DNA of 64,000 nt from Paracoccaceae bacterium (lineage in GTDB: Bacteria > Pseudomonadota > Alphaproteobacteria > Rhodobacterales > Rhodobacteraceae), in assembly GCA_020832655.1 (NCBI GenBank), contig JAFIEF010000006.1, forward strand, positions 21,811-85,810, given 5' to 3'. Below are positions 489 to 56,858 of this stretch, piece after piece. The notes under the pieces were generated by a model. That model was not told where the DNA came from, searched no databases, and was given only the letters and a program-made list of their open reading frames with translations. Position 1 is the first letter of the stretch; each line of letters opens with the position of its first letter. Position numbers and translations under genes: made by a program.

Positions 489-2033
489 TTACGCGCGGGC
501 AGTCTTGGCGCCAGGCTTGACGGGGTGCGCGGACTTATCGTGCGCGCCATCACCCAAATGCGCGGCCTTCAACGCAGGGACATCCTGCGCCGTGACTGTG
601 CAGTTGCGGCCATGATCCTTGGCGCAATAGAGCGCCTGATCCGCCGCTTTCATCAACTCATCCACCGACTGCCCATCCTGTGGGTAAAGGGCAAGCCCGG
701 CCGAGGCCGTGATCTGCGGCAAGGCCGCGCCGGCATGTTTCAAGCTTAGCTCTGACAGGGATGCGCGGACCCGGTCTGCCAGTGCCACGGCCTTTGACCC
801 GGACATGTTCGGGGCCAGCAAGACGAACTCTTCTCCGCCCATGCGGCAAGCATACGCCGCTGGTTCCCCCAATGTGCGCAGCAGGTTGCCGACCTCCTGC
901 AACACCAGATCACCTGCATCGTGACCATAGCTGTCATTGAAGGATTTGAAGTGATCGACATCGAACATGATCATGGCGATTTCGCTGCCCTCGGCGCGGG
1001 CGTGATGCAACTCCTTGCTGGCGCGATCATTGAACCAGCGCCGGTTCCACAGCCCGGTCAGCGCATCGCGCATCGACTGGTCATGCAGTTCCTGACGCAG
1101 GCGGACATTGGCAATCGCCAGGCTGATCTGTTCGGCGCAGATCAGCGACACATCCCAGCGGTTGCGCAACACTTCCTCGCGCATGTGGCGCATCAGCCCG
1201 CCTTCTTCAAAGCCCTCGAACACGATATGCAGAAGGCCAATGGTTTCACCATGCGCGATGATCGGCAGGCAGAAATAGGGGGTGGCTGGGTTCTTGACAT
1301 GGTCACAGGCGAACTGGATCGGCTTCAGCCCATAGGCATAGGCCCGGCCCCGGCGCAGTGCCCAGCAATCATCCGGCTGCATATGGGTCTGGAAATCCGG
1401 CGTGCTGCCCCAGCTTGTGGCCAGTTCCAGAGTGCTGCGCGCGGCGCCATAGATGTAAAGTGCGCCTTCGGCTTCGGGGATCAGCGTATGCATGGCGCGC
1501 TGCACCACCATCAGCAATTCGTCAAAAGACTTGGCGGAATAGAGCCATTCGCTGGTCAGTGCCAGCAATTGGCGTTCGGATTGACGCAGTGCTTCGGCGT
1601 GCCGCATTTCGTCATTTTGCTGTTCCAGATTCTTGCGGTCGCTGATGTCGCGCATGCTGGAGATGAAATGCGTGTGCAGGCCAGTGGCATCGAAGATCGG
1701 GGTGATCTTCAGATCAACCCAGAAGGGCTGACCATCTGCGGTGTAGTTCAGGATATCCACCCGGACTTCACGCCGCTGGCGGCAGGCAATCAGGATCTGC
1801 CTGGCCGTGGCGGGGTCTGTATCCGGGCCTTGAAGGATGGTGCCGGGTTCCTCGCCGTGCAGATCGTTGATGCCGTAGCCAGTCTGCGCCGAAAATGCCG
1901 GATTGACCCACAGAACCTTGCGGTCAGGCCCGCAGATAACGATCCCGTCAGAGGAGTGCCCCATCACAAGCTGCGCAATGGCATGTTCGGGCGGCGGCTC
2001 TGGGCTGTTTTCCTGAATGTCTTTGGCGCACAT
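489..2033 (-). CDS. PAS-GAF-GGDEF protein, putative diguanylate cyclase
   Basis: 514 aa; N-terminal PAS (GIVICGPDRKVLWVNPAFSAQTGY), GAF-like middle, DALTGLWNRRWF and RMGGEEFVLLAPN signature. Confidence 0.92.
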   Translation of the reverse strand: MCAKDIQENSPEPPPEHAIAQLVMGHSSDGIVICGPDRKVLWVNPAFSAQTGYGINDLHGEEPGTILQGPDTDPATARQILIACRQRREVRVDILNYTADGQPFWVDLKITPIFDATGLHTHFISSMRDISDRKNLEQQNDEMRHAEALRQSERQLLALTSEWLYSAKSFDELLMVVQRAMHTLIPEAEGALYIYGAARSTLELATSWGSTPDFQTHMQPDDCWALRRGRAYAYGLKPIQFACDHVKNPATPYFCLPIIAHGETIGLLHIVFEGFEEGGLMRHMREEVLRNRWDVSLICAEQISLAIANVRLRQELHDQSMRDALTGLWNRRWFNDRASKELHHARAEGSEIAMIMFDVDHFKSFNDSYGHDAGDLVLQEVGNLLRTLGEPAAYACRMGGEEFVLLAPNMSGSKAVALADRVRASLSELSLKHAGAALPQITASAGLALYPQDGQSVDELMKAADQALYCAKDHGRNCTVTAQDVPALKAAHLGDGAHDKSAHPVKPGAKTARA

Positions 2034-2120
2034 GATCTTTCCAACGCTGGTTTACTGCCCACAAACTGGTTTTATGCCGCGTGTGGCGCGGGTCCATATG
2101 CTGACGATGCCACAGGCGCG

Positions 2121-2135
2121 TTAACAGATTGTTAG
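2121..2135 (-). promoter_or_regulatory. CtrA-like box CTAAC-AATCT-GTTAA (minus strand)
   Basis: TTAACAGATTGTTAG on plus strand, 86 bp upstream of the GGDEF gene start; same CTAA-N7-TTAA pattern as sites at 4191 and 34126. Confidence 0.6.
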
Positions 2136-2248: not shown

Positions 2249-3382
2249 ATGAAGCGTCAGGTCATTATACGCAGTATTGCCATTGCATTCGCGGGCATCG
2301 CGGCATCGGTTTTTGCGACCAAGGAATTGTTGATCGACAGGCCCGCCTCTGGCACAGAGCACGCGGCAGGGGTGACGACGGCCCCTGACAGCGTGAAAGG
2401 GGCCAGCCTGATCGGTGCGGGAACCGAGGCGGCAAGCAACCGCACCGCGGCGAATGCACCTGATCTGCAGATATCGGCCGAGCGCCCGGACGAACCATTG
2501 CCGATGCTGGTTTTTGAACCACCAACAGCAGTGCATGCCCCGGCGCAGGAGATGGCATCAGAGCTGTCACTCTCGGCGCTGGACGGGGCATTGACGCCGC
2601 AGACCGAGCGCGTGCTGCGCGAGGATTTCCGCCCCGAACTGGCGCTGGTCGAGGCGGGCAGCATGGATGATTCCCTGCTTTGCGACCCGGATATTCGCCT
2701 GACGCCCCTGCCCGAGGCGATGGTGCAGTTGCAGGTCGCCGCGCGCTGTCAGGGCGAGGGGCGTATTGTTGTCAGCCATGCGGATCTGGCTTTCAGCGCA
2801 TTTCTTGATGCCGATGGCTTGTATCAGGGCGCCATCCCCGCCCTGTCATCAGAAGCACGGGTTTATGTGTTCCTGCCCGATGACAACATGCTGCAAGCCT
2901 CTGCCCTTGTGCCGGAACTGGGCGATCATCACCGTGTTGTCCTGCAATGGATGGGTGATTACGGGCTTGGGCTGCATGCCTTTCACCACAATGCCAGCTT
3001 CGGCGAGGCCGGGCACGTCTTTTCAGAAAACCCCCATGACCCGGAACTTGCCGCCGCCTTCCTGATCACGCTGGGTGATGCGCGCGGGCCGGAACCGATG
3101 CTGGCGCAGATCTACTCGATCCCGGTGGATCAGCGCGATGCTGCCCGGCTGGAACTGGAAGTAACCTCTGACAAGCGAAGCTGTGGCCGCGACATTATGG
3201 CGCATGTAATGCAGATTGCACCGGGGCTGCAGGGCGATATGAGCGAGGTCAGCTTTGCCATGCCCGCTTGCGATTCCGAGGTCGGGCTGGCGATTCTGAA
3301 CCTTCCCTTTCAGACGCCGCGCGACACCGCGCTTGACGCGCCGGAACCGACGACCCCGGAACTGGCGCAGGGCACCCAGTAG
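2249..3382 (+). CDS. Conserved hypothetical exported protein
   Basis: ORF 2129-3382; start at internal ATG giving MKRQVIIRSIAIAFAGIAASVFATKELL (signal-anchor-like) preferred. Confidence 0.6.
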   Translation: MKRQVIIRSIAIAFAGIAASVFATKELLIDRPASGTEHAAGVTTAPDSVKGASLIGAGTEAASNRTAANAPDLQISAERPDEPLPMLVFEPPTAVHAPAQEMASELSLSALDGALTPQTERVLREDFRPELALVEAGSMDDSLLCDPDIRLTPLPEAMVQLQVAARCQGEGRIVVSHADLAFSAFLDADGLYQGAIPALSSEARVYVFLPDDNMLQASALVPELGDHHRVVLQWMGDYGLGLHAFHHNASFGEAGHVFSENPHDPELAAAFLITLGDARGPEPMLAQIYSIPVDQRDAARLELEVTSDKRSCGRDIMAHVMQIAPGLQGDMSEVSFAMPACDSEVGLAILNLPFQTPRDTALDAPEPTTPELAQGTQ

Positions 3383-3404: not shown

Positions 3405-4178
3405 TCATAACAGCCCGGCACTGCGAAAGCTGAGTTCGCGCGACTGGCCGATCACGATGTGATCATGCAGCGTGATCGAAAACACCCCGCATGCGGCGTT
3501 TACGGTGTTGGTCATGGCGATGTCAGCGTCGGACGGGGTCGGGTCGCCGGATGGATGATTGTGCACCAGAATCAGCGCCGAGGCATTCAGTTCCAATGCG
3601 CGGCGCAGAACCTCTCTCGGGTAGACCGGCACATGATCCACTGTGCCTTCGCCTTGGGCCTCATCTGCGATCAACACATTCTTGCGGTCCAGAAACAGCA
3701 CGCGGAACTGTTCGGTCTCGCGATGTGACATCGCCGTGTGGCAGTAATCCAGCAGCGATTGCCAGCTAGAGATTACCGGACGGTGCAGAACCCGTGCGCG
3801 GGCCATGCGTTGCGCGCAGGCCTCTGTCAGTTTCAGTTCGGCAATCACCGCATCTCCCACGCCATTGACCGCCCGCAGCCGGGCCGGGGCGGCGGCGATG
3901 ACGCGGTTCAGATCGCCGAACTGGTCCAGCAAGCGCCGCGCCAGCGGTTTCACATCCTGCCGCGGAATCGCGCGAAACAGCAAGAGTTCCAGCAATTCGT
4001 AATCCGGCATCGCATCGGCCCCGCCGGACAGGAAGCGCGCGCGCAACCGCTTGCGATGATCGCGCAGATAGGAAGGCAGGGGCGGTCTGGCCGTTTCCTT
4101 CGGCCCTGCGCCGAACAGGGGCAGGGGGCTGTCCGAACAGGCTGTATCGGGGCGGGGTGTGCGCATGGCACAGATCAT
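3405..4178 (-). CDS. radC: RadC family (JAB/MPN domain) protein
   Basis: 257 aa with HNHPSGDPTPSDADI metal-binding motif and N-terminal helix-hairpin-helix region (AVNGVGDAVIAELK). Confidence 0.93.
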   Translation of the reverse strand: MICAMRTPRPDTACSDSPLPLFGAGPKETARPPLPSYLRDHRKRLRARFLSGGADAMPDYELLELLLFRAIPRQDVKPLARRLLDQFGDLNRVIAAAPARLRAVNGVGDAVIAELKLTEACAQRMARARVLHRPVISSWQSLLDYCHTAMSHRETEQFRVLFLDRKNVLIADEAQGEGTVDHVPVYPREVLRRALELNASALILVHNHPSGDPTPSDADIAMTNTVNAACGVFSITLHDHIVIGQSRELSFRSAGLL

Positions 4179-4190
4179 CGGCGGGCTTGG

Positions 4191-4205
4191 CTAAGAAATG
4201 GTTAA
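4191..4205 (+). promoter_or_regulatory. CtrA-like box CTAAG-AAATG-GTTAA
   Basis: CTAA-N7-TTAA immediately upstream of radC and downstream of the acpP terminator. Confidence 0.5.
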
Positions 4206-32497: not shown

Positions 32498-32583
32498 AGC
32501 GGCCCCCTGCCTGCCGGGTAGCGAAAACGTCAGTTTGCCCAAGGAGTGTTAAGAAACTCCATAACTCGCGGGCATATCCGGGT

Positions 32584-33594: not shown

Positions 33595-34080
33595 CTAGCG
33601 AAGTACGAATTCGGTGATCAGGAAATCGCGGATATTCCCCTGCCCGGCGATGGTTTGCAGCCGTCGCAGAATCTGCGCGCGCAGGCGGAACAATGCCTCT
33701 GCCTCTGCCAGATCCTGCGGGTTGACCGCGCGCAGATAGGTGTTGATCACATCCACAAAGCGCGGATGCATCCGCATCACCTCTGCATAAGCGTGGGCGG
33801 GCACTTCGATCTGGGCCGCAAATTGCAGATTGCTGACCCCGCTGCCGGGGACAAGCGAAATGGTCATGCTGTCGATGGCGATGAAATCGAAATCCAGCGT
33901 CATTGGCGCGGGCGTCGGCGCCGAATCGCCCGGACCCAGCAGCCAGCCCTGATAAACAGCAAGGAATCCCCCCCCGCCCAGCACCAGCGCCGCAACCAGC
34001 GCCAGCATAACTGCGCGCAATCGCGGTTTCGCAGATGCGTCCGGGGGAAGATCCGGTGCAGTGGTCGTGCTGTCAGCCAT
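33595..34080 (-). CDS. fliL: Flagellar basal body-associated protein FliL
   Basis: N-terminal TM, periplasmic domain with LVPGSGVSNLQFAAQIEVPAHAYAEVMRMHPRFVDVINTYLRAVNPQDL; ends RDFLITEFVLR. Confidence 0.85.
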   Translation of the reverse strand: MADSTTTAPDLPPDASAKPRLRAVMLALVAALVLGGGGFLAVYQGWLLGPGDSAPTPAPMTLDFDFIAIDSMTISLVPGSGVSNLQFAAQIEVPAHAYAEVMRMHPRFVDVINTYLRAVNPQDLAEAEALFRLRAQILRRLQTIAGQGNIRDFLITEFVLR

Positions 34081-34125
34081 CTGACTTTCCTTGGCGTTCC
34101 TTTTCTTCGATATCGCACAAGCTCA

Positions 34126-34140
34126 CTAACTCATTGTTAA
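34126..34140 (+). promoter_or_regulatory. CtrA-like box CTAAC-TCATT-GTTAA
   Basis: In the 121-bp gap between divergent fliL and fliF operons; CTAA-N7-TTAA. Confidence 0.65.
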
Positions 34141-34201
34141 AACAGTCGCGCCACACTGCACATATTCGGACCGGGCGTCCGCCGATGCAGGAGGCATTGC
34201 A

Positions 34202-35815
34202 GTGCAGAATATTCAGGCGCTCTGGTCGGCGCTGGACAATCGCAAGCGCATGATTGTCGGCGGGGCCGCGCTGGTCACGATACTGGCGGTTCTGGGCATT
34301 GCGCGCATGGCGGCCACACCGGGCATGGCGCTGCTATATTCGGGGCTGGAAGATGCCACTGCGGGTGAGGTGATTCAGGCGCTGGAATCGCGCGGCGTGC
34401 GCTACAGCGTGCGGGGCGATTCGATTTTCGTGCCCGGCCCGCAGCGTGATGAAACCCGGCTGATGCTGGCCGCGGCCGGGCTGCCCGCCAACACGCATTC
34501 CGGCTATGAGCTGCTTGATTCGCTGTCGGGTTTCGGCACCACCTCGCAGATGTTTGATGCCGCCTATTGGCGCGCGAAGGAGGGCGAACTGGCGCGCACC
34601 ATCGCAGCCAGCCCACATATCCGCACGGCGCGGGTGCATATTTCGCAAGGGGTCAGTTCCGCGTTTCGCCGCGATGTCGCGCCTTCGGCCTCGGTCACGG
34701 TGACGCCGGTCTCGGGCATGCTGACCCCGCCTCAGGCGCGCGCGATTCGCTTTCTGGTGGCCTCGGCCATTGCGGGGATGGCACCCGAAGATGTCTCGGT
34801 AATCGATGGTGCGGGCGGTTTGGTCTATGGTCCGGAATCAGAGGCCACGCCCCATGCCGCAGCCGCTGATCGCAGCGCGGAACTGCGCCGCAGTGTCGAA
34901 CGGCTGCTGGAAGCGCATGTCGGGCATGGGCGCGCGGTGGTAGAGCTGAGCATCGAAACCGTGACCGACCGCGAGGTCATTCACGAACGCCGCGTGGACC
35001 CCGATTCGCGCGTGGCGATCAGCACCGAAAGCGAAGAAAATGAAAGCAGCACGCAGGACACGCGCAGCGCGGGCGTGACCGTGGCCAGCAACCTGCCCGA
35101 TGGCGAGGCGGCGGGCGCTGACGGCAACGCGCAAAGCCGCGACAGCCAGACCCGCCAGCGCATGAACTACGATATGTCCGAAACCCGCCGCGAGATAGAG
35201 CGACTGCCCGGTGCCATCCGGCGAATCAGTGTCGCGGTGCTGATCGACGGGGTGCAGGAGACCGGGGCGGAAGGGGCACCGCAATGGCGTCCGCGCAGCC
35301 CTGAAGAGATGGAGGCGCTGCGCGAGCTTGTTGCCTCGGCAGTCGGGTATGACGCGGCGCGCGGCGATGTCATCACCCTGCGTTCCCTGCCATTCGAGCC
35401 GGTCGCGGTGCTGGGAACCGCCCCGCCAGAGGGGCTGTTTTCCGGGGCAGGGCTGGATCTGATGACCGTGCTGAAATGGCTGTTTGCGCTGGTCTTTCTG
35501 ATCGTGCTGTCGGTGTTTGTTCTGCGCCCGATGCTGCGCGCGGCGTTGCAGGCCAATGGGTCTGGCCCCACGCGCTATCTGCCTGATGAGGCCGGCTTCG
35601 GCCCGATGGAAGGGCAGGCCGCGCTTGCGCGGGTACAACCCCCAGCGCTGCGCGGGCAGTCTGTCGAAAGCTACGCCCCACCAGCTGACGCCCCCGACCC
35701 GGTCGAGCGGTTGCGCAATCTGCTGGCCGAACGCCAGCAGGAATCGGTCGAATTGCTGCGCCACTGGATCGAGGATGCGCCGCGCCCCCAAAATGACCGC
35801 CAGCCGAGGCCATGA
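34202..35815 (+). CDS. fliF: Flagellar M-ring protein FliF
   Basis: MALLYSGLEDATAGEVIQALESRGVRYSVRGDSIFVP; YELLDSLSGFGTTSQMFDAAYWRAKEGELARTI; C-terminal TM. Confidence 0.93.
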   Translation: MQNIQALWSALDNRKRMIVGGAALVTILAVLGIARMAATPGMALLYSGLEDATAGEVIQALESRGVRYSVRGDSIFVPGPQRDETRLMLAAAGLPANTHSGYELLDSLSGFGTTSQMFDAAYWRAKEGELARTIAASPHIRTARVHISQGVSSAFRRDVAPSASVTVTPVSGMLTPPQARAIRFLVASAIAGMAPEDVSVIDGAGGLVYGPESEATPHAAAADRSAELRRSVERLLEAHVGHGRAVVELSIETVTDREVIHERRVDPDSRVAISTESEENESSTQDTRSAGVTVASNLPDGEAAGADGNAQSRDSQTRQRMNYDMSETRREIERLPGAIRRISVAVLIDGVQETGAEGAPQWRPRSPEEMEALRELVASAVGYDAARGDVITLRSLPFEPVAVLGTAPPEGLFSGAGLDLMTVLKWLFALVFLIVLSVFVLRPMLRAALQANGSGPTRYLPDEAGFGPMEGQAALARVQPPALRGQSVESYAPPADAPDPVERLRNLLAERQQESVELLRHWIEDAPRPQNDRQPRP

Positions 35816-56684: not shown

Positions 56685-56832
56685 TACTCTTTACCCTATG
56701 TCTTGGCCCCAACTGTTGATTACGGCAGAATTCATCACGATGGAAATCCATTCTTAACTATTCTGCGCTAGCCTGTGGGTTGCGCTGCCTGTTTTCGGAA
56801 GCGAGCGGCGCGTTTCCTCCCTGTCAGACTGG

Positions 56833-56858
56833 CTGCACCTTCGGGTGCAGTCATTTTG
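56833..56858 (+). terminator. UUCG-tetraloop hairpin, terminator-like, upstream of nothing annotated
   Basis: CTGCACC-TTCG-GGTGCAG followed by TCATTTTG; a second stem GCGGGC...GCCCGC follows. Confidence 0.4.

Follow-up and report, generated by a model that had tools for sequence, protein, structure and literature searches.

The 64-kb window examined here (the whole analysed stretch of 64,000 nucleotides) carries a CtrA-type box at 2121-2135 on the minus strand, and this box is very probably where CtrA binds in a sigma-70 promoter for a diguanylate cyclase gene of the PAS-(GAF)-GGDEF type. Putative CtrA control of this gene is well supported by four lines of evidence: the right half-site and the -10 element are conserved, a matrix built without the GGDEF sites recovers the box, CtrA is encoded in the genome, and the ctrA promoter has the same layout. 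The anatomy of the promoter, its conservation and the presence of CtrA were all computed; beyond these, we infer CtrA as the binding protein, activation as its effect and c-di-GMP as the product of the enzyme. We hypothesize that phosphorylated CtrA binds both half-sites over the -35 region, with the right half-site at -27 to -24 and the left at -38 to -35, and would recruit RNA polymerase to the -10 element 12 nt downstream, where transcription would begin near 2097. The radC, fliL, fliF and ctrA promoters would be driven by equal geometry, and a cell with active CtrA would accordingly make the diguanylate cyclase alongside flagella and a recombination gene.

The GGDEF gene and its promoter

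The cyclase gene (489..2033, minus strand) encodes 514 aa with a GGEEF active site and without the RxxD inhibitory site. The PAS-GAF-GGDEF architecture proposed in the initial annotation holds for PAS (E 5e-17) and GGDEF (E 2e-47), which match Pfam clearly; the GAF domain is only weakly matched in the window protein (E 0.0099, below the cut-off). PAS is found in all 16 members of the family tested, and GAF_2 or GAF_3 is matched in six of the 16. Of the 37 genus genomes, 36 have a single-copy orthologue (59-75% identity), and GGEEF is intact and RxxD absent in 36/36 homologues, so the predicted cyclase is probably active and free of RxxD feedback.

On the minus strand the box reads 5'-CTAA-CAATCTG-TTAA-3' (2135-2121, CTAACAATCTGTTAA), a full site one mismatch from TTAA-N7-TTAA, with a matrix score of 23.2 against a maximum of 16.1 in the reversed-sequence control. 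The -10 element CATCGT (2104..2109, minus strand) lies 12 nt past the box, with A at -11 and T at -7; the transcript start at about 2097 is predicted from the spacing in R. sphaeroides and implies a predicted leader of 64 nt. Conservation was assessed in the upstream regions of 30 GGDEF orthologues from one genus, which share descent and are not independent trials: TTAA-N12-A-N3-T is present in 29 of the 30, and the A at +13 and the T at +17 past the box are present in all 30. When all 256 4-mers (K) were tried in the frame K-N12-A-N3-T, TTAA reached 29/30 and the runner-up 5/30; shifting the A/T pair to other spacings left a count of three or fewer, such that only spacing 12 works. The A and T of the -10 element had played no part in the choice of the site. 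A matrix trained on the radC, fliF and fliL sites only ranked the GGDEF box top in 29 of the 30 upstream regions, with a shuffle p <= 0.05 in 27. The DNA flanking the box is unconserved across the same regions and serves as an internal control, so the conservation of the box is not mere recency.

This conservation falls unevenly on the two halves of the box. The initial annotation had held that a site lacking conservation upstream of orthologues would speak against CtrA control; the right half-site and -10 element are in fact kept in 29 of 30. Across the orthologues its CTAA-N7-TTAA description holds for the right half and mostly not for the left: the window genome has CTAA there and three relatives have GTAA, and most other orthologues are degenerate (mostly GCAA, TCAA, GAAA or NTCA, far from consensus). 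Outside the genus, a clear full site was seen in only one of five closer relatives, and the box was mostly not found with more distant GAF-GGDEF homologues from other genera.

The radC and fliL/fliF boxes

The CTAA-N7-TTAA arrangement also occurs at 4191-4205 and 34126-34140 in the window, and a check of the sequence bore out the earlier claim of three boxes, each in a promoter gap: between the GGDEF gene and its divergent neighbor, between radC and the next gene, and between fliL and fliF. The other two targets had been named as radC and flagellar genes, and the RadC, FliL and FliF identities were confirmed. An earlier estimate of about 0.1 expected matches against three found is about right for the exact pattern (3 observed vs 0.06 expected; none of 100 dinucleotide shuffles reaches 3), a variant picked post hoc once the sites had been seen. 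For the conventional consensus the count is unremarkable: TTAA-N7-TTAA with one mismatch is found 3 times in the window vs 1.59 expected (22 of 100 shuffles reach 3), and 77 times in the 3.24-Mb genome, a density of about 1.5 per 64 kb. Only the exact variant chosen afterwards thus shows a clear excess. When promoter context is included, as TAA-N7-TTA[AG]-N12-A-N3-T, the window yields the same three sites only, vs 0.02 expected. Because box counts alone are indecisive, the case rests on conservation and anatomy.

At radC the box (4191..4205, minus strand, 5'-TTAA-CCATTTC-TTAG-3') is kept in 30/30 loci of the genus as TTAA-N7-TTA[AGT], with an A at +13 or +14; it is followed by the -10 element GATGAT (4174..4179, minus strand) and a transcript start predicted at about 4167. 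In about 22 of 30 orthologues an ATG follows the box at a distance of about 25 nt, which moves the probable start of radC (3405..4166, minus strand) from 4178 to the ATG at 4166. The start given by the longest open reading frame is therefore probably 12 nt too early, and the mRNA is probably leaderless or nearly so.

The box at 34126..34140 (CTAACTCATTGTTAA on the plus strand) is common to the divergent fliL (33595..34080, minus strand) and fliF (34202..35815, plus strand, flagellar M-ring protein). It is CTAA-N7-TTAA in all 30 genus loci, with an A at +13 in both directions in all 30. The -10 element of fliF is CACACT (34152..34157, plus strand; predicted start ~34164) and that of fliL is GATATC (34109..34114, minus strand; predicted start ~34102). 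A weaker CtrA-like site, TATG-GAGTTTC-TTAA-N12-AAACT, lies at 32549-32563 on the minus strand, with a score (11.7) under the control maximum; the gene behind it is presumably related to motA, judging by its translation.

Candidate binding proteins and target genes

The window genome encodes CtrA at C60:29318-29992; the protein is 74% identical to the Caulobacter one, and the Rhodobacterales CtrA model NF045991 of NCBIfam identifies it independently at 420 bits (cut-off 350). Its promoter, GTAACATAGAATTAA-N12-AGTCT, has the layout of the others, and GTAA-N7-TTAA-N12-A-N3-T was present in every one of the 19 ctrA promoters analysed across the genus. A paralogue at C47:56511-57176 shares 48% identity with CtrA, its recognition helix (GMDEPxxKIIDVFxCKLRKKL) is nearly the same, and the TTAA-containing box TTAACCCAGGATGAA stands just 5' of the paralogue's own start. 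On these grounds the GGDEF box could be real and bound by the paralogue instead, which we regard as quite improbable: CtrA is found in nearly all genomes of the genus and the paralogue in only about 12 of 37, so it does not explain genus-wide conservation, and the GGDEF, radC and fliF promoters are conserved even in genomes without it. Some other factor might read an asymmetric G[AC]AA-N7-TTAAC, to which the CtrA fit in the window genome would be secondary; most orthologues have a left half of the G[AC]AA type or one that is degenerate in some other way, and GAAA-GCGAATC-TTAACC is shared by a conserved promoter of a probable small RNA at 56743 (see below). This too is unlikely, since the window site is one mismatch off the CtrA consensus, the distance from box to -10 element is the same as in the ctrA, fliF and radC promoters, and half-sites for CtrA are reported to be potentially important in R. 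capsulatus (PMC7232146). As for chance matches to a loose consensus, the count of TTAA-N7-TTAA with one mismatch would by itself allow them; with each of the three sites kept in 29-30 of 30 orthologues and the -10 spacing fixed, their probability is negligible.

The box lies in a gap common to two genes, and might in principle serve the divergent gene (2249..3382, plus strand; 377 aa, no function assigned) rather than the GGDEF gene. In that direction, however, its score of 9.9 falls inside the range seen with the reversed control, and the plus strand has no -10 element in register. Neither tsf nor the 2249-3382 gene, its neighbors in the window, was found beside the other GGDEF orthologues in the genus loci; in the 10 loci looked at, the orthologue is divergent to a gene that we take, from its translation and by eye, to encode an aldehyde dehydrogenase. 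This neighbor has been lost from the window genome and the box has been kept. Since the box has remained at the GGDEF gene while the neighbors changed, including in genomes without the 2249-3382 gene, and no -10 element points toward 2249-3382, we assign it to the GGDEF gene and consider service to the divergent gene very improbable. The same gaps contain TGTCACG in 26 of 30 cases; the motif is gone from the window genome, and is missing in the four loci with NTAA as the left half of the CtrA box. The idea of a second regulator site was dropped: the motif reads as a -35 element (GTGACA), with a -10 element about 17 nt further on, before the aldehyde dehydrogenase gene, and is apparently, by eye, the -35 of that divergent promoter.

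c-di-GMP turnover and known CtrA systems

Pattern searches of the whole genome with the strict signature TAA-N7-TTAA-N12-A-N3-T gave 10 matches on both strands, whereas the reversed pattern gave 3. The exact signature did better than a 33-nt sequence-only covariance model, which proved too weak for the scan (4 matches). The signature marks the GGDEF, fliF and ctrA promoters, and also a stand-alone EAL phosphodiesterase (C33), a PAS-domain protein (C12), a small protein whose ATG lies 24 nt past the box (C34), and a divergent gene pair with weak molybdopterin-oxidoreductase similarity (C56), with a hybrid histidine kinase gene after one of the two. The EAL gene (C33:41913-42812) occurs in 36 of the 37 genus genomes and has a perfect TTAA-N7-TTAA in all 30 genus loci examined. 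Together with the GGDEF boxes, this yields the new observation that genes for c-di-GMP breakdown as well as synthesis carry what are, by sequence, CtrA-type promoters, so that both arms of c-di-GMP turnover appear to be provided with them.

Elsewhere in the window, at 56743-56858 on the plus strand, a CtrA-like promoter (GAAATCCATTCTTAA-N12-AGCCT) scores 18.7 against the reversed-control maximum of 16.1, and 3' of it lies a stretch of stable predicted structure that includes a TTTCCTCCC segment and a terminator hairpin. The structured stretch at 56781 is a probable small RNA: it can be aligned in 31 of 37 genus genomes, and its GGAAAGC-N4-TCTTAACC-like promoter is kept in most loci. Against Rfam it gave sub-threshold matches only (SorX, 21 bits; mmgR, 19 bits).

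The box is perfect on the EAL phosphodiesterase and weaker and half-degenerate on the cyclase. We offer as a tentative and rather doubtful proposal that in this genus CtrA directly drives the diguanylate cyclase, the EAL phosphodiesterase (C33) and the conserved small RNA, and that, with rising and falling CtrA activity, box strength orders the removal and remaking of c-di-GMP, which would feed back on CckA/CtrA.

Studies of related bacteria provide close parallels. In CtrA-dependent fla2 promoters of Rhodobacter (Cereibacter) sphaeroides, the box ends 23-24 nt before the transcript start and an invariant A stands at -11, and at fliL2p-fliF2p one CtrA site serves two divergent promoters, as established by ctrA deletion, transcript mapping and site mutation (PMC6180460). 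The window box at 34126-34140, shared by divergent fliL and fliF, has the same arrangement, and the single-site arrangement is therefore already known experimentally; the GGDEF promoter likewise has the fla2 spacing and the A at -11, relative to a predicted start. The proof in R. sphaeroides is experimental, whereas the promoters described here are read from sequence, and the R. sphaeroides study did not include GGDEF and radC promoters (PMC6180460). In R. capsulatus, radC belongs to a CtrA-dependent expression module for gene transfer and competence (PMC4158056), in which it is grouped with competence and recombination genes whose expression falls in a ctrA mutant (PMC4158056, PMC10218006); to that module the present analysis adds a box and a probable leaderless start, read genus-wide. 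The initial suggestion that the targets fit the known CtrA regulon thus agrees with the proven fliL/fliF case of R. sphaeroides and with the radC module of R. capsulatus.

Genes of c-di-GMP metabolism have also been placed under CtrA in Dinoroseobacter shibae (dgc2; PMC6473078), Phaeobacter inhibens (PMC12363192) and Rhodobacter capsulatus (rcc00645; PMC4158056): in these three species mutants of the CtrA pathway show a loss of expression of diguanylate cyclase or phosphodiesterase genes, or such genes bear predicted CtrA sites. The D. shibae Dgc2 protein has a receiver domain (PMC7232146), unlike the PAS-GAF-GGDEF product described here, and the two are, judged by domain layout, different genes. 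The present analysis would link one specific PAS-GAF-GGDEF gene to CtrA and so add one gene to a known type of circuit, and the signature NTAA-N7-TTAA-N12-A-N3-T offers a sequence handle on CtrA targets in the genus. The paired site on the phosphodiesterase suggests control of both arms of c-di-GMP turnover by CtrA, and the CtrA-type promoters on the two c-di-GMP genes extend what has been reported for D. shibae, P. inhibens and R. capsulatus.
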